Below are positions 8,927 through 21,045 of a stretch of DNA of 26,738 nucleotides, piece by piece. The notes below the pieces were generated by a model. That model did no database searches. It was not told the DNA's origin and was given only the letters and a program-made list of their open reading frames with translations. The stretch spans positions 1 through 26,738 of IMG/VR virus record IMGVR_UViG_3300038416_000176; one strand, given 5' to 3'. This stretch comes from a virus. How positions within the stretch are numbered: position 1 is the first letter of the stretch; every line of letters begins with the position of its first letter. The translations under genes and the position numbers were made by a program.

Positions 8927-9462
8927 CACGCACACTTATAGGCTTCACCGGGTTTGCCGGAGCTGGCAAATCCACCGCGTCTGCTGCGCTCGTTAAACAT
9001 CGCGGCTTCACTCAGCTCAGTTTCGCAACGCCGTTGCGCGCCATGCTGGTAGCAACGGGCATCGAACCCGAATGGCTTTTGGAGCGCAAAGATGAGATAA
9101 TCCCCTGGCTTGGTGTCACTGGTCGCCATCTCATGCAGACCGCGGGCACCGAATGGGGACGAAATCTAGTGCATCCTGACTTTTGGGTACGCCTCGCACA
9201 GCGCCGCGTTCAGACACAGCCCGACAAGAGAATTGTTTTCGACGATGTTCGCTTCGACAATGAAGCCCGCATGATTTGCGGGCTTGGCGGTGTCATTATC
9301 GGCATCCGCCGCGACTTTCCAACGCTTCGCGGGCAAATGAATCACGCGAGCGAAGCCGGAGTCAGTGAAGGCCTGGTCGACCGGTGGATCGGCAACTTTG
9401 GCGCAGACAAAGACCTGTTCAGCAAACTTGTGCTCGCGATCCATGACAAGGGGGCGACATGA
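8923..9462 (+). CDS. deoxynucleoside monophosphate kinase-like P-loop protein
   Basis: The protein has 179 residues. It begins with a P-loop, GFAGAGKST at 10-18, followed by an LSFATPLRAML helix, a GRHLMQTAGTEWGR segment (107-120 region) and a Walker B-like IVFDDVRFDNEA. This arrangement is that of the phage dNMP kinase group related to T4 gp1 and T5 dNMP kinase, which phosphorylate deoxynucleoside monophosphates. It pairs naturally with the HD nucleotidase upstream. The start is the ATGA overlap. The substrate range cannot be read from sequence. Confidence 0.85.
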   Translation: MTRTLIGFTGFAGAGKSTASAALVKHRGFTQLSFATPLRAMLVATGIEPEWLLERKDEIIPWLGVTGRHLMQTAGTEWGRNLVHPDFWVRLAQRRVQTQPDKRIVFDDVRFDNEARMICGLGGVIIGIRRDFPTLRGQMNHASEAGVSEGLVDRWIGNFGADKDLFSKLVLAIHDKGAT

Positions 9463-10059: not shown

Positions 10060-10244
10060 CTGCTATTCCTACATCCCTGCGCCGCGTGCTCGATGCTCAA
10101 AAGCGCAACGCTGAGCCGCCCGGTGACAAAACCTGGATTTGGCGCGATGGCACGGTCATTCGCGAGCGTGCCAATGGCAAGGTCGAGCGTTGGCCGTCGA
10201 TTGATCCGGTGGGCATGCAAAGCGCTCGGAAATTAGGCCGATGA
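10056..10244 (+). CDS. small hypothetical protein, 62 aa
   Basis: Sixty-two residues from a GTG overlapping the KOW gene stop. Basic overall, with a TWIWRDGTVIRERANGKVER beta-hairpin-like centre and a short C-terminal tail. ATGA couples it to the primase-helicase gene. No family is recognised. Position just upstream of the replicative enzyme might indicate a replication accessory factor, but nothing else supports this. Confidence 0.6.
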   Translation: MTAIPTSLRRVLDAQKRNAEPPGDKTWIWRDGTVIRERANGKVERWPSIDPVGMQSARKLGR

Positions 10245-12235
10245 TCCTCACCCTTCAGACAGCTCAAGTCCTGCACGCCAGCGGCGTCGCCTGCATTCCC
10301 TGCAACGCCGACAAGCGCCCGCGCGTGCCGTCTTGGTCGGAGTATCGGACCAGCCTGCCCAAAATCGAAGAGCTTGAGCGGTGGTTTTCCAAGGATGCGC
10401 GAATCGCGCTTATCGCCGGCAAAGTTCAGTGTCTCGACTTTGATGAGAAATACAGCACCGGCATCTTTGACCGCTTCACCAAGCGAGCTGAAGAGGTCGG
10501 GCTAGATAAGCTGCTTGGTCAACTGATCCTGCAGCAGACGCCGTCAGGCGGTTATCATCTGGTGTGGCAGTGCGACGGTGAGCGGATCGGCAATCTAAAG
10601 CTGGCGCAGAAAGCAAATCTCGATTCCCTGATCGAGACGCGCGGTGATGGCGGTTATTTCCTGATTTCGCCGTCTGATGGTTACAAGCTGATCGCTGGCG
10701 ATTGGTCGAGTATTCCTGCCATCAACGCTGATGACCGTGATGCGCTGCTCAATCTGGCGCGCACGTTCGATGAGCGACCGCCCGTTGAGGCGCATGAGGC
10801 GGCGCCAGTCCAACCGGGCGGCGAAGCAACACCGGGCGATGATTTCGACTTTCGCGCCAACCTGCCCGAGATCCTTAAGTCTCACGGCTGGAAACCGGCA
10901 GGCGGCAAGTATTGGACGCGACCGGGAAAGGCTCGCGGCATTTCGGCGTCATGGGATGTTATACCTGGACGATTTTTCGTGTTCAGCAGCTCGACACAGT
11001 TTGAACCAAACCACGTTTATCGACCCTGGCATGTCTACACTGTGCTTGAGTGCGGTGGCGACTATTCGCGCGCTGCTGCTGAGCTTCGCCGGCAGGGGTT
11101 TGGCGGCGAGGTACCATCAAAGCACACACAGCAGACTCAGCCTGTGCCGGCTGATTGGTTCCCGCCGATTGAACCGTCACACGAAGGAATCGATCCAACC
11201 GGAGCTGTTCCGACCGTCGAGACCGAAGATGAGAAGGCACGCCGCTTATTCAGGGCGCGGCAGTTTGATCCAGCATGCAAGCCGCCTGATTTGCGCGTGC
11301 GCTTCACTCTTGGCGGCGTTGTAGTCAGCACGCCTGGCAACCTAACGGCTATCACAGCACAAGCCAAGGTCGGCAAATCGGCTTTGATTCAGGGCTTTGT
11401 TGCGGCGTCCATGACGCAGTCAGGCGATGCCGACTGCCTCGGCGTTATCGGCAAGAACACGCATGGCCGCGGCGTTATCTATCTCGACACTGAGCAATCG
11501 CGCGACGATTTCTGGCGGGCAATGGATGCTGCCAAGCGCCGTGCCAAAATAGACGCCTTTCCGCCGTGGTTTCAGGCATTCGGCATTGGCGACTTGCCTG
11601 TTGCCATGCAGCGCCGTGGCTTGGCTGTAAAGATGGCTGACACAGCATCAGCCTTCGGCGGAATGTTCGCAGTCTTTATCGATGGCGTTGCCGATATGGT
11701 GCTGGACGTGAACGACGCCGAGATTTGCAACGCCTTTGTCGCTGAAATCTTCGAACTCGCGACGCGCTACGATTGCCCGATTGTCTGCGTGATCCACAAG
11801 AACCCCGGCAGCGACAAGACGCGCGGGCATCTTGGTAGCCAGCTCGAACGCAAGGCAGAGACGAACCTGACGCTCGAAAAGCAGGACAATGAAACGTTGG
11901 TTTGGTCAGAGAAGCAGCGCAGGGCGCCGATCTTCAAAAGCGAAGGTGTACGGTTCGCTTGGTCTGAAGAAGCAGGAATGCACGTCTTGGTTGTGGGTAG
12001 TGGACAGCCAAAACTCAGCCAATCGCTGGCGGAATGGCGCGATTTCGCCATAACAGTTCTGAATGCCAAGCAACCGCTAACTTATGTAGAACTGCGCGAT
12101 GGACTCGTGAAAGTATCAGGCCGCGCGCTGCCAAGCGCACAGCGTAATATCAAACAACTACGGGCTGCCGAACTTATCACTTACGATCACCTGAAAGGCA
12201 CGTATGAACTTCCGCCGTTGAATCCGTCTCAATAG
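10241..12235 (+). CDS. primase-polymerase / RecA-fold replicative helicase fusion
   Basis: The protein has 664 residues. Residues 1-175 form a prim-pol (AEP) domain: catalytic D66-F-D68 in CLDFDEK, the His motif PSGGYHL (H106), and the RGDGGYFLISP segment at 134-144. Residues 200-290 form a linker domain typical of these fusions (KYWTRPGKARGISASW). Residues 345-600 are an AAA_25 RepA/DnaB-like ATPase: Walker A AQAKVGKSAL (373-382), YLDTEQS (414-420), Walker B FAVFIDGVADM (476-486), a sensor His in VIHKNP and RGHLGSQ. A small winged-helix-like end follows. It would prime and unwind DNA at the phage origin, perhaps the repeat array just downstream. It is one of the two genes in the window that end in TAG. 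Confidence 0.92.
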   Translation: MILTLQTAQVLHASGVACIPCNADKRPRVPSWSEYRTSLPKIEELERWFSKDARIALIAGKVQCLDFDEKYSTGIFDRFTKRAEEVGLDKLLGQLILQQTPSGGYHLVWQCDGERIGNLKLAQKANLDSLIETRGDGGYFLISPSDGYKLIAGDWSSIPAINADDRDALLNLARTFDERPPVEAHEAAPVQPGGEATPGDDFDFRANLPEILKSHGWKPAGGKYWTRPGKARGISASWDVIPGRFFVFSSSTQFEPNHVYRPWHVYTVLECGGDYSRAAAELRRQGFGGEVPSKHTQQTQPVPADWFPPIEPSHEGIDPTGAVPTVETEDEKARRLFRARQFDPACKPPDLRVRFTLGGVVVSTPGNLTAITAQAKVGKSALIQGFVAASMTQSGDADCLGVIGKNTHGRGVIYLDTEQSRDDFWRAMDAAKRRAKIDAFPPWFQAFGIGDLPVAMQRRGLAVKMADTASAFGGMFAVFIDGVADMVLDVNDAEICNAFVAEIFELATRYDCPIVCVIHKNPGSDKTRGHLGSQLERKAETNLTLEKQDNETLVWSEKQRRAPIFKSEGVRFAWSEEAGMHVLVVGSGQPKLSQSLAEWRDFAITVLNAKQPLTYVELRDGLVKVSGRALPSAQRNIKQLRAAELITYDHLKGTYELPPLNPSQ

Positions 12236-12556
12236 CAATATCAATGAGTTATAAAGTTACTATCACGGCGCAAGTCCTTAGACGTAGTCCATGTTGCAGG
12301 TTTAGGTGATAGTAAACCACGGAAATATGCTATTCTCAATTAATATCCTCACTGAGTTACTATCACGACAGTTCCCAAAGAATTAATTCCGTAATCAGTA
12401 CTACGTTCAATGAGTTATGTTCGGTTACTATCACGCTATCACCTACTATCATTTCCACTATCACGATAGGTCTACTATCACGCTATCACCACCCCCCTAC
12501 GTAGTAGGGGGTGGGTGATAGTGAGAACGGAGCAAAATCGACTATCATACTATCAT
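12236..12556. repeat. CTATCA(C/T) repeat array, candidate replication origin or operator cluster
   Basis: This AT-richer stretch has no supported gene up to 12554. It holds twelve copies of CTATCA(C/T): ten direct (12260, 12360, 12428, 12436, 12446, 12458, 12475, 12483, 12542, 12550) and two inverted (12306-12312, 12515-12521). CTATCACGCTATCACC occurs twice exactly (12428-12443, 12475-12490). A longer companion motif TCAATGAGTTAT occurs at 12241 and 12407, with a variant at 12349. Several copies are spaced by exactly 8 bases. Iteron-like repeats directly after a primase-helicase gene fit an initiator-bound origin. An operator array for a phage regulator is the alternative. Confidence 0.75.
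12483..12521. repeat. long near-perfect hairpin within the repeat array
   Basis: Two 18-base arms, CTATCACCACCCCCCTAC (12483-12500) and GTAGGGGGTGGGTGATAG (12504-12521), match at 16 of 18 positions around a 3-base GTA loop, with TACGTA at the tip. Both arms include a copy of the array repeat in opposite orientation. No T-run follows, so an intrinsic terminator is less likely than a cruciform, a protein-binding site or an origin hairpin. Confidence 0.85.
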
Positions 12557-13241
12557 GGCGCGTCCGCCGCCAAAATCTTCAACGCTGCCCATGTGCGTAG
12601 CCTGTCTTTCAAAGATCGGCTGGGGAATCAAGCGTATCTGCCGACAGACGGGCTTTGCCAAGACAACCGTGCATCGCTTCATGCGTGTACATCAGGCAAC
12701 CGACCCGTTCTTGGCGGCAGTCAAACAGCAGACATTCTGCGATGCCAAGAAAGCACGTACTGCAAGGGCTAAGGCAGAACGTAAGGCAAAGCGTGCTGCT
12801 GAACGTGCTACAAAACCAAAGGCAAAGCAGATGACACAGATGGAGCGTTACTACGCCAACCACGAACAGAGCAAGGCATATGCTGCTGCTCAATCTCGCA
12901 AGCGCTGGCTCAAACTATCGAAGGGCAGCGATGAATATATGCGCAAGATCCTTCGTGCCCGTATATCCCACTGCATCAAACGTGATGGTGGCGAGAAGTA
13001 CGCATCAACAGTCGAACTAATTGGTTGCTCAATAGGGCAGTTCAAGGCGCACATGGAGTTGCTGTTCATTGACGGTATGTCGTGGGACAACTACGGCGAC
13101 TGGGAAGTGGATCACCGCAAGCCATGCGCCTCGTTCGATCTATCCGTGCCAGAACAACAGCGCGCCTGCTTTCACTACACCAATCTGCAGCCGCTGTGGC
13201 GCACAGACAACCGACGTAAACATGCAAGGATTGCGGCATAG
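12555..13241 (+). CDS. HNH endonuclease, probable homing enzyme
   Basis: The protein has 228 residues. The N-terminus has C14-x2-C17 and a helix-turn-helix-like segment (IKRICRQTGFAKTTVHRFMR at 25-44). A highly basic Ala/Lys linker follows at 65-92. The C-terminal HNH motif is visible: WEVDHRKPCASFDL (183-196, with D186 and H187), N210 in HYTNLQPLW, N219 and H223. Composition is less G+C-rich than its neighbours and the gene ends in TAG, unlike most others here. It also starts inside the last copy of the repeat array and breaks an otherwise coupled gene series. These signs fit a mobile, free-standing homing endonuclease. The cleavage site is unknown. Confidence 0.85.
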   Translation: MARPPPKSSTLPMCVACLSKIGWGIKRICRQTGFAKTTVHRFMRVHQATDPFLAAVKQQTFCDAKKARTARAKAERKAKRAAERATKPKAKQMTQMERYYANHEQSKAYAAAQSRKRWLKLSKGSDEYMRKILRARISHCIKRDGGEKYASTVELIGCSIGQFKAHMELLFIDGMSWDNYGDWEVDHRKPCASFDLSVPEQQRACFHYTNLQPLWRTDNRRKHARIAA

Positions 13242-17243: not shown

Positions 17244-18802
17244 GCCTTCGAAAGAACGTCGCGAACTTTTTGAGCGGTGGGGCTGTGATTCAGGCTCAGC
17301 GCACCCGGATCGAGATGCGGATGCAGCTTCGCCGCGAGCGAATCAGGGCACGCTACGAAGCGGCTTACTGGAACACGGCGCGCAGCTACCTGCCGAGCTA
17401 CATTCAGTCAGCGCGCGAAGACATCAACACCCTTTCCCGTCAGGAAATTCTGCGCCGGACCCGCTACTTTGAGAAAAACAACGCGGTGATGGACAAGGTC
17501 CTTGACGTTAAGGATGTCAACGTAATCGGCAGTGGCATCCGGCCTGCGCCCGCGGCGAAAGACACCGATTGGGGAAAGCGCGCTCTCGAATGGTGGAACG
17601 AGTGGATTGAGGTCGCCGACATCACTACGCTTTCGAGCTATTACAAGCTTCAGTCAATCAGCTATCGCGCGCAGAACGTCGACGGCGACAATTTCTTTCG
17701 GAAATGTTTTTCTCCGGCTGGTCGACCGGCGCTGGATGTCATCGAGGCGCATCGCTGCGGAACTGGCGGCGTCGATATTGGGGCGATTGAGCGCTCGGGA
17801 TTCAAGGTTGTTGACGGCGTCATAATCGACCTTCAGTTCAAAATTCCGCGCGCCTACCTGATCGCGGATGATTTCGATGGGAGCAAGGTTCAAGCGTATC
17901 CGGCTAGTGAAATCATTCCAGTGTGGAACCGCAGGCGCGCGGGACAGTACCGCGGGCTGACGCTGTTTCATGCCGGCATCCTTGACATCCACGACCTTGA
18001 TGACTTGCAAAAATATGAGATGCGCGCGGCCAAGGACGCCGCTTCGATTTCGCGCATCATCAAAACCCAGGCAGGCGCGGTCACGCCGGACGGAAACGCC
18101 ATCGGTGCTTCGCTTACTGCGCTGCCGAATGCTGACCCTGCAACGCGGGTGGCATATTACAAACAAGCGCTCGGCGGTGAGGTATTGGTGCCGCAGGTCG
18201 GGGATGAAATTACGCAATTCGAGAGCAAGCGCCCGTCTGCAGCGACAACCGGTTTTTGGGATCGGCTCGACGCTAAATTTGCTCAGGGTTCTGGCATTTC
18301 CTACCCGGCGTTGGTCGATTACCGCGTCGCATCGTTGGGCGGCGCCACCCTGCGCGCCTGTCTGGAGTCGGACAACCGGCGATTCGAGTTGGAGACTATC
18401 GATCAAGCCCGCGCCGCGCAGAAGGTTTGGGAATTTGCGATAGGTTGGGCCATCGCGCACGGCGAGGTTCCGAAAAATCCTGATTGGAACAAGGTCAGGT
18501 GGCACCCGCCGCGGCGCACAACGGTCGACGTGGGCAACGATTCTGCGGCCCGCCTGGAGGAACTGAAGGCTGGTCGCACGACCTATCAGGACGAATACGG
18601 CGAGACCGGTGAAGACTGGCGCGAGCGTCTTGACCAGCGTGCGCAAGAAGAAGCCTACATCGATGAACTCGCGGCTAAATACAAGATTCCACGTCAACTT
18701 ATAGCCAGCTTCGCGATGGAGCGGCTTGCCGGACAAGCGCCCGACGCGGTCGGACCAACCCCGGCGCCAGGGGAAGGAGGCGGAAAGGGAGAAACTCAAT
18801 GA
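17240..18802 (+). CDS. portal protein, lambda gpB family
   Basis: The protein has 520 residues from the ATGA overlap. It matches the lambda gpB / Phage_portal_2 pattern: an N-terminal basic helix, then ARYEAAYWNTARSYLPSY, a SRQEILRRTRYFEKNNAVMD segment, VNVIGSGIRPAP, and a C-terminal stretch with WHPPRRTTVDVGNDSAA and a TTYQDEYGETGEDW loop. The portal forms the dodecameric DNA gate at one capsid vertex. An ending rich in Gly/Pro (GPTPAPGEGGGKGETQ) is probably disordered. The stop overlaps the protease-capsid fusion gene. Confidence 0.92.
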   Translation: MSLRKNVANFLSGGAVIQAQRTRIEMRMQLRRERIRARYEAAYWNTARSYLPSYIQSAREDINTLSRQEILRRTRYFEKNNAVMDKVLDVKDVNVIGSGIRPAPAAKDTDWGKRALEWWNEWIEVADITTLSSYYKLQSISYRAQNVDGDNFFRKCFSPAGRPALDVIEAHRCGTGGVDIGAIERSGFKVVDGVIIDLQFKIPRAYLIADDFDGSKVQAYPASEIIPVWNRRRAGQYRGLTLFHAGILDIHDLDDLQKYEMRAAKDAASISRIIKTQAGAVTPDGNAIGASLTALPNADPATRVAYYKQALGGEVLVPQVGDEITQFESKRPSAATTGFWDRLDAKFAQGSGISYPALVDYRVASLGGATLRACLESDNRRFELETIDQARAAQKVWEFAIGWAIAHGEVPKNPDWNKVRWHPPRRTTVDVGNDSAARLEELKAGRTTYQDEYGETGEDWRERLDQRAQEEAYIDELAAKYKIPRQLIASFAMERLAGQAPDAVGPTPAPGEGGGKGETQ

Positions 18803-21045
18803 GCCGGCCCACAGGGGACAAGCTCAAGACCGTAACTGCTATTTTGAATGCCGTGGGAGACCAGGACATCAAGCTTTCATGCCGGGAGATTGAGCGCCTA
18901 GAGGGTGTTCGCAACGGTACTATAGGCAAAATTGAGCGCACGGCGCTCAAGAAGGTGCATGCTGGTCTGGTCGGGTACAGAGTTGGTCGCGTTCAAATTC
19001 AGGCGCGCGATTCAGCGAGTGTCATTGCTTTTTCGGTGCCCTCTGCATTGCCCTCGCTCGCTGCCTCCGACCCGATGCCCGAGGCTATCATTTGGATGCC
19101 GGCTGGCGTCCACGCCATCACAGCCTGCACGCTCGACGGTAAGGGATACAGCGGCACGGTCATTTGTGATGAGCAGGCAGCGCGTGTTGTAGCTTCCCAC
19201 CTTGCTACCCTAAAGGCCAAGGGCAAGCGCACCTGGATCGACTTCAATCACGAGGATGGCGCCGCTTCTGCGGATATTAAGGCGTTCTCGTGGGACCCCG
19301 CCAAGGGAATCATGGCGCATCTCGACTGGACGCCGGGCGGCGAAAAGTCAGTGCGCGACAAAGAATTTATTTCGTTCAGTCCTGCTTTTGAGGCGAACCG
19401 GACTACCGGTCGCATCGAGAGCTTGATTGAGGGACATGCGTTAGGGGGCTTGGTCAACGCACCGGCCTTTGACGCAATGCCAGCTTTAATCGCGGCCCGG
19501 TATGGCCTCGATGCTTCTCACAGAAATCCGCATCCGGAGGATAACCCGGAATCCAAAAACATGAAAGAGACACTGCTCAAGATTCTGGCCGCGCTGAAGG
19601 TTACTCCACCGGCCAACGCTACCGAGGACCAGCTTGTGGACCTCCTTGCCAAGCATATCGATGGCCTCGCGCCAAGCGAGGAGGTCGTTAAACTGAAGGC
19701 TCAGCTTACCGATCTGAAGACCGCCGCCGATGCTGAAAAGACTGCATCAGTGCAGGCCAAGAAGGACGCCGACGTCAAGATCGCGGAAATGGAGCGCAAG
19801 ATGACTGAGACCGCTGCTGTGCTGGCAGGTTTCAAGGCCGGTGCCGATGGCGTGCGCGTGGTCGTGACGCAGGAGGACATGACCGATGTTCTCGCTGCCT
19901 ACGCCTCCAAGGACCCGTCGCAGTTTCCGGCGAATGAGCATTTCGCGCAGCAACGCGCGGAACTCGCCGTTGATCGCGCGCTGATCTATGCGCGTAACAT
20001 CAAGCCGCGCCTGTTCAAGAATCGGGAGCGCGCTTCGATTCGCGCTGCCCTGGCTGACCTGCTCAGTCATGCCGGCGTCCACAGTGCAGACATTGTCAAG
20101 ATCGTCGCGAAGGCTACTACCCGCCTTCAGATTCAGGCCAACACGCTCGGCACGCTGTCCGGTTCGCTCATTGCGCAGCAGGCTCTTTCGCTGCTCAAGG
20201 CTGACCTGCCGGCGCTCAGTATGTTTACGGCCGACTTCAGCAACGCCGCTGCTAAGCTGAATCAGACGGTAATCACCCGCATACGTTCGATTCCTGCGGT
20301 GCAGAGCTACGCTGCGCCTCCGACCGGTTATGCTGCTACGGCCGTCACCGACACTGACGTTCCGGTGACTATCGACCAGCACCGCTACGTGCAGTTCGAC
20401 TACAACGCGAACGAACTCGCTTCGACCAACCGCGACCTGTTCGGAGAGCAGGCCGAGGGTTCGATCTACGCGCTCGGCAAGGATGTTGTCGACTTCATCC
20501 TCGCGCTTGTGACGGTCGGCAACTTCAACATCGGCGGGGGGAAATCGACGGTCGCGCAGAGTGCGTGGACGCGCTCGGCGGTGATCGCACAGCGCGTCGC
20601 GCTCCGTAAACGGAAGGTGATGATTAAGGACGGCTTTGCGATAATGAATGAGGATTACTTTGGTCAGCTCGCGGTTGACCCGGTGATCGCTACCCTCGCG
20701 ACGTTCCAACGGCCTGACCTCATCACGGAATACGTATTGCCCAAGATCGCCGGTTTCATGCCGGTGGGTTACGTCGACCTGCCCACGACCAGCAACCTCG
20801 TTGCTGTCCTTGGTTCCAAGGAAGCGCTCGTGGTTGCGGCCCGCCTGCCTTACGACTACGTTGACGCTCAGATCGGCAGCAACTACGGCGCGGTTTCGCA
20901 GGTCAGTGATCCCGACACCGGGCTGTCAGTGATGCTGACGCAGTACGTCAACCACGACGCCGGCGCCAGCCGCTATCGCGTGGCGCTCATGTACGGTTCT
21001 GCGGTGGGTGACAAGACCCGCGCACAGCTCGTCGTGTCGGCCTGA
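18799..21045 (+). CDS. fusion: sigma4-like HTH, Mu-I-type prohead protease, scaffold-like coiled coil, major capsid protein
   Basis: A single 748-residue frame. Residues 27-56 resemble sigma-70 region 4.2. Residues 93-226 match the Mu protease I fold (WMPAGVHAIT, WIDFNHEDGAASA with H151, DKEFISFSPAF with S194, GLVNAPAF). Residues 255-348 form a charged coiled-coil, scaffold-like segment (KLKAQLTDLKTAADAEKTAS). From about 370 to the end is the HK97-type capsid subunit. Met255 (ATG 19561) could start a separate scaffold-capsid protein, as internal starts do in lambda C/Nu3, but no good Shine-Dalgarno motif precedes it. The protease would cut the scaffold away during maturation. Confidence 0.88.
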   Translation: MSRPTGDKLKTVTAILNAVGDQDIKLSCREIERLEGVRNGTIGKIERTALKKVHAGLVGYRVGRVQIQARDSASVIAFSVPSALPSLAASDPMPEAIIWMPAGVHAITACTLDGKGYSGTVICDEQAARVVASHLATLKAKGKRTWIDFNHEDGAASADIKAFSWDPAKGIMAHLDWTPGGEKSVRDKEFISFSPAFEANRTTGRIESLIEGHALGGLVNAPAFDAMPALIAARYGLDASHRNPHPEDNPESKNMKETLLKILAALKVTPPANATEDQLVDLLAKHIDGLAPSEEVVKLKAQLTDLKTAADAEKTASVQAKKDADVKIAEMERKMTETAAVLAGFKAGADGVRVVVTQEDMTDVLAAYASKDPSQFPANEHFAQQRAELAVDRALIYARNIKPRLFKNRERASIRAALADLLSHAGVHSADIVKIVAKATTRLQIQANTLGTLSGSLIAQQALSLLKADLPALSMFTADFSNAAAKLNQTVITRIRSIPAVQSYAAPPTGYAATAVTDTDVPVTIDQHRYVQFDYNANELASTNRDLFGEQAEGSIYALGKDVVDFILALVTVGNFNIGGGKSTVAQSAWTRSAVIAQRVALRKRKVMIKDGFAIMNEDYFGQLAVDPVIATLATFQRPDLITEYVLPKIAGFMPVGYVDLPTTSNLVAVLGSKEALVVAARLPYDYVDAQIGSNYGAVSQVSDPDTGLSVMLTQYVNHDAGASRYRVALMYGSAVGDKTRAQLVVSA

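Follow-up and report, generated by a model that had tools for sequence, protein, structure and literature searches.

What are the short repeats that follow the prim-pol/helicase gene of this virus for, and which protein recognises them? The window (the whole stretch of DNA analysed here, 26,738 nucleotides) is a 26.7-kb virus record and probably a fragment. An earlier note had read the repeats as an iteron-type replication origin and had left the initiator open between small helix-turn-helix (HTH) proteins and the primase itself. The main genes are carried on the + strand, where recombination and nucleotide genes precede the prim-pol/helicase gene (10241–12235), which is followed by the array. 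Then come, in order, an HTH+EndoVII-like gene, a weak TerS, Dam, a gpA-type TerL, a portal and protease/capsid.

Several features of this setting can be recorded separately. The gene adjoining the array (12555–13241) encodes an N-terminal helix-turn-helix and a C-terminal EndoVII-like HNH domain, and the HNH half of its product is 53% identical to one beside the terminase of P8625, a Verrucomicrobia phage. A 748-aa frame at 18799–21045, with a Mu-like protease domain (residues 113–385) and a major-capsid domain (447–628), is apparently a protease-capsid fusion. A 15/30-bp tandem repeat at 1825–2042, within gene 1732–2379, was interpreted as an assembly breakpoint, because it is where two further contigs of this virus end.

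The features of the locus are as follows.

10241–12235, + strand: prim-pol/helicase, 664 aa, proposed self-loading initiator (PF09250, PF13481)
11336–11800, + strand: AAA_25 RecA-fold helicase domain (PF13481, model alignments)
12020–12208, + strand: C-terminal winged helix, residues 594–656, proposed iteron-binding domain (model, covariation)
12236–12554, no strand: non-coding candidate origin region (no frame, GC drop, shuffles)
12241–12252, 12349–12360 (near copy) and 12407–12418, + strand: companion motif TCAATGAGTTAT
12259–12266, + strand: iteron ACTATCAC
12306–12313, − strand: iteron ACTATCAC
12359–12366, + strand: iteron ACTATCAC
12427–12442, + strand: two iterons, 8-bp spacing
12445–12452, + strand: iteron ACTATCAT
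12457–12464, + strand: iteron ACTATCAC
12474–12489, + strand: two iterons, 8-bp spacing; left arm of a large inverted repeat
12490–12513, no strand: GC near-palindrome CACCCCCCTACGTAGTAGGGGGTG, 24 bp
12515–12522, − strand: iteron ACTATCAC; right arm of the large inverted repeat
12541–12556, + strand: two ACTATCAT iterons, 8-bp spacing, overlapping the next start codon

The array described in the earlier note, ten direct and two inverted copies of CTATCA(C/T), was borne out by counting and by shuffling. ACTATCAY occurs 12 times at 12259–12556 (10 forward, 2 reverse), and its core CTATCAY 12 times at 12260–12556, with 10 copies on the + strand and 2 on the − strand (12306, 12515). None of the 12 differs from ACTATCAC at more than one position, and three window copies have the form CTATCAT. 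The whole window holds 18 copies of CTATCAY, against 2.5 ± 1.6 (maximum 8) in whole-window shuffles, while local dinucleotide shuffles of the 321-bp region gave a mean of 0.19 copies and a maximum of 3 in 2000 shuffles. The six stray copies outside the array (7682, 8706, 11349, 13895, 19085 and 22033) are all on the + strand, which may reflect codon bias. A second contig of the same virus carries an identical array.

The finer description also held. Exact 8-bp spacing is found in three iteron pairs (12427/12435, 12474/12482 and 12541/12549), and the two blocks reported as identical over 16 bases, 12428–12443 and 12475–12490, are in fact identical over 18 nt. The companion motif TCAATGAGTTAT is exact at 12241 and 12407 and has a third copy with two changes at 12349 (TCACTGAGTTAC); every copy begins 10–20 bp ahead of an iteron, and the motif was not noticed in relatives. 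The array lies directly 3′ of the prim-pol/helicase gene, as claimed, in a non-coding, AT-richer stretch bounded by the stop at 12235 and the next ATG at 12555, with 40% GC versus ~58% around it. Absent from the earlier note was the near-palindrome at 12490–12513, whose flanking repeat copies are in opposite orientation; folding of 12420–12530 as single-stranded DNA gave z = −3.8. The region thus has the layout of an iteron origin, with multiple short direct and inverted repeats in a non-coding, AT-richer region adjoining a replication gene.

The adjoining gene encodes a Prim-Pol domain (PF09250, residues 13–146) and an AAA_25 domain (PF13481, residues 366–520), both above cut-off. In a structural model of residues 331–664 (334 residues, pLDDT 88), a RecA fold resembling those of DnaB and RepA precedes a winged helix of three helices and two strands (H264–279, H285–296, H300–312, E317–319, E324–326; model numbering). 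Folded by itself from one sequence (81 residues), the winged helix gave a poor model, which was left unused. Structural alignment placed the model with DnaB (Z 21.5) and RSF1010 RepA (Z 19.5, rmsd 2.5, 214 aligned). A helicase with a C-terminal winged-helix fold, a feature of the plan of SaPI Rep, Cch2 and pRN1, is therefore present in the predicted structure. The SF3 helicase core of the pRN1 type was not found, the core being an AAA_25 RecA fold closest to DnaB/RepA; for this reason the protein is likened to the pRN1 type in its proposed working but not classed with it.

An IMG/VR profile search yielded seven contigs, five of them distinct (L279, L281, L283, L284 and L285; L279/280 and L281/282 were grouped), with prim-pol/helicases 40–56% identical to that of the window. 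A repeat cluster stands immediately after the equivalent stop codon in 5/5, with four motifs among the five, namely AGTCTCC (L279/280), AGTCTCAT (L281/282), AACCCTCA (L283, L285) and AACCCCGT (L284), although exact copies are few in the L279 and L284 clusters. The CCC..TATATA..GGG palindrome, the counterpart of 12490–12513, is also present in all five, and the position of array and structure immediately downstream of the helicase is kept across the relatives. L283 and L285, which have the motif AACCCTCA in common, also have the most similar protein tails. No arrays were found at the loci of more distant AAA_25 proteins (L286–L289). At the loci of gut-phage helicases related to that of the window (L025, L026, L028 and L029), the gene is followed by a short inverted repeat around TATATATAGG in place of a dense array.

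The relationship between motif and protein was quantified by Mantel tests over 38 array-bearing loci, uncorrected for phylogeny. Motif similarity correlated with similarity of the last ~95 residues (r 0.29, p 0.0002; partial on the core 0.30, p 0.0002) and not with that of the ATPase core (r 0.03, p 0.23); other protein segments gave weak values (r 0.09–0.13). The tail–motif r was 0.39 at loci with at least five copies and 0.30 after removing one of each close pair, and it fell to 0.14 (p 0.007) on thinning the GCGGA group. As far as these sequences go, the covariation is real but moderate. Where the earlier note had left a choice between small HTH proteins and the primase, the evidence points to the prim-pol/helicase, which the model and the covariation suggest binds the iterons through its C-terminal winged helix.

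The same layout was then seen well beyond the close relatives. P8625, with which the window has several genes in common, carries repeated CTATCGGC octamers and a hairpin 3′ of its primase-helicase gene, spanning the record ends. A CTATCAC pattern scan of 85,000 genomes returned 102 loci, mostly simple tandem octamers without a helicase, and most of these were set aside as microsatellites; matches in CTATCGG scans were unrelated tandem repeats. An Anaerolineae prophage (L082) has 13 CTATCAC copies, in both orientations as in the window, directly 3′ of an AAA_25 helicase whose C-terminal HTH matches HTH_27/MarR_2 below cut-off. This position behind the helicase pointed to the helicase and not to a terminase. 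An IMG/VR search with the L082 helicase gave no match. A different virus, L012, carries a CTATCACGCTATCAC inverted hairpin at 2193–2237 between two minus-strand frames and further motif copies at 9008–9031 just ahead of a TerS-like gene; no RepA helicase was detected on this 13.6-kb fragment, which has the window's motif.

RepA-like helicases of phages and plasmids picked by protein similarity have dense private motifs directly 3′ of the gene, for example GCGGTACA in an Idiomarina phage, GGCGGAGAT in RHph_N65, and AAGTGCGGCA, TTGCGGAAGT and GCGCAACA in Klebsiella, Caenibius and Methylobacterium plasmids, respectively. Across 51 RepA-like helicase loci selected by protein only, an array (one 7-mer at least 5 times in 300 bp) followed the stop codon in 21/51, and none was present in the upstream 300 bp (0/51) or inside the gene (0/51; Fisher 7e-8 for 21/51 vs 0/51). 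P8625, seen at the homologous position, and L082, found via the motif, were left out of these statistics. The first sample, 30 loci from 398 Pseudomonadota genomes, gave arrays after the stop at 10 loci and none either ahead of the frame or within the genes; two further samples were positive at 4/11 and 7/10 loci, with controls at 0. In the first sample, 7/10 array-positive downstream regions contained a CCC/GGG hairpin whose arms measured 7 bp or more, versus 0/20 control regions.

At this 7-mer threshold, 30/51 loci were without an array, and none was found with the helicases of Arthrobacter, Mycobacterium, Microcystis, Manatee Spring and Polaromonas. Most AAA_25 genes in a sample from Chloroflexota genomes had none either, and the claim is accordingly restricted to RepA-like helicases of phages and plasmids. 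Four complete replicons carry, 3′ of the helicase gene, an array that exceeds every other repeat of the genome in density. In the GC-skew check that the earlier note had suggested, the minimum fell within ~2 kb of the array in only 2/4 complete array-bearing replicons; given this result, and as the window is a fragment, skew is uninformative here.

Functions other than replication must be weighed against these observations. The repeats could be an operator set through which a phage regulator, or the helicase itself, controls transcription of the downstream operon. They run up to the start codon (12555), the window and P8625 encode two HTH-bearing proteins nearby, and autoregulation is common at iteron origins. 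However, promoter-like matches are near chance (2 found vs 0.9 expected), the array covaries with a gene that it stands behind, not ahead of, and the gene next in line differs from relative to relative. As the explanation of the array this is unlikely; as a second role of the array it is possible.

A packaging site (cosB or pac), at which the terminase small subunit or the HTH-HNH protein would bind repeats beside the packaging genes, we judge very unlikely. The gpA-type (lambda-like) TerL and the HTH+HNH gene do lie within 2.2 kb 3′ of the array, and terminase genes also follow in L281/L282, but the genes 3′ of the array differ among relatives, the RHph_N65 terminase is 8.5 kb away from an array that is still with the helicase, and a partial search recognised no terminase near L082. 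The record ends of P8625 fall inside its array, although the P8625 paper does not say how they were determined. Moreover, contigs run across the array, and the motif follows the helicase tail. Finally, it is scarcely credible that the repeats are primer start sites for the prim-pol domain (reading a GTG/GTGA template motif, as NrS-1 and pRN1 do) and not initiator sites. The reverse complement GTGATAG does start with GTGA, a site that the NrS-1 prim-pol uses efficiently (PMC8718748), but the relatives' motifs AGTCTCC, AACCCTCA and AACCCCGT lack GTG on either strand, on which ground such sites were rejected; the three CTATCAT copies lack it too, and it is the C-terminus that the motif tracks, not the primase at the N-terminus.

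The iteron-origin reading was thus supported by comparison, since every close relative found repeats its layout, as do numerous unrelated phages and plasmids, and since the motif covaries with the protein tail. The repeat cluster and hairpin very probably have an origin role, and we consider it likely, on comparative grounds, that 12236–12556 is the phage's replication origin and the prim-pol/helicase its self-loading initiator. In the mechanism that we propose, the C-terminal winged helix would bind the 8-bp ACTATCAC sites 3′ of its own gene and the protein would oligomerise on the array. Duplex opening might be aided by the palindrome and AT-rich flanks, after which the DnaB/RepA-like ring would load and the N-terminal prim-pol domain would make the first strands on the exposed template. 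With related replicons having their own iterons, an initiator would be expected to act at origins of its own kind only.

Parts of this plan are known from other systems. The prim-pol/SF3/winged-helix protein ORF904 of the Sulfolobus plasmid pRN1 has an essential origin just 3′ of its gene, a ~100-nt stem-loop without iterons whose structure has low sequence conservation, and its authors propose the same plan for phage BIP-1 (PMC4234260). The window resembles it in having a prim-pol/helicase with a predicted C-terminal winged helix and a candidate origin 3′ of the gene, but differs in its RecA-fold AAA_25 domain, in place of SF3, and its iterons. SaPI Rep and SCCmec Cch2 likewise have iterons directly 3′ of their helicase genes, bound by the C-terminal domain, which for Cch2 is reported to bind in isolation (PMC7581432), although these are other helicases and the primase is unfused. 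In the alpha protein of phage P4, which acts at origin repeats, a single chain combines a primase and a helicase with origin binding by a winged helix (PMC4234260 and general knowledge), but its primase is of the Toprim type (PMC4234260) and its helicase of another family. RSF1010 shares the RepA fold, acting at an iteron origin with hairpins, but divides the work among three separate proteins, RepA, RepC and RepB′, of which the iteron-binding one is RepC and not the helicase (PMC4234260). NrS-1 polymerase is a phage prim-pol with a hexameric C-terminal helicase domain and sequence-specific starts (PMC8718748, PMC7102993), yet it uses two 8-nt genome sites, with no array reported, and the template is recognised by the primase side. 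The plan is therefore known from pRN1, SaPI Rep, SCCmec Cch2 and P4 alpha, and the window combines a RecA-fold helicase, a fused primase, private iterons and a palindrome, a combination of which we found no description in the open-access literature.

Ring helicases of the DnaB/RepA type normally depend on a separate initiator or loader for their placement on DNA. We lean slightly towards a widespread and undescribed class of phage and plasmid origins that would dispense with both. In it, a RecA-fold helicase of the RepA/DnaB type, in many cases joined to a prim-pol or Toprim primase, would load itself through its C-terminal winged helix at private iterons that surround a CCC-TWTA-GGG palindrome just 3′ of its gene, and winged helix and iteron would evolve together as a specificity code that can be exchanged. 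The few dozen paired winged-helix and iteron sequences offer material on how such domains change DNA specificity. For many unannotated phages, prophages and phage-plasmids, the comparison gives a simple rule for locating the origin, which is to look behind the RepA-like helicase; and it suggests that in one phage family origin recognition, ring loading and primer synthesis all fall to a single chain.
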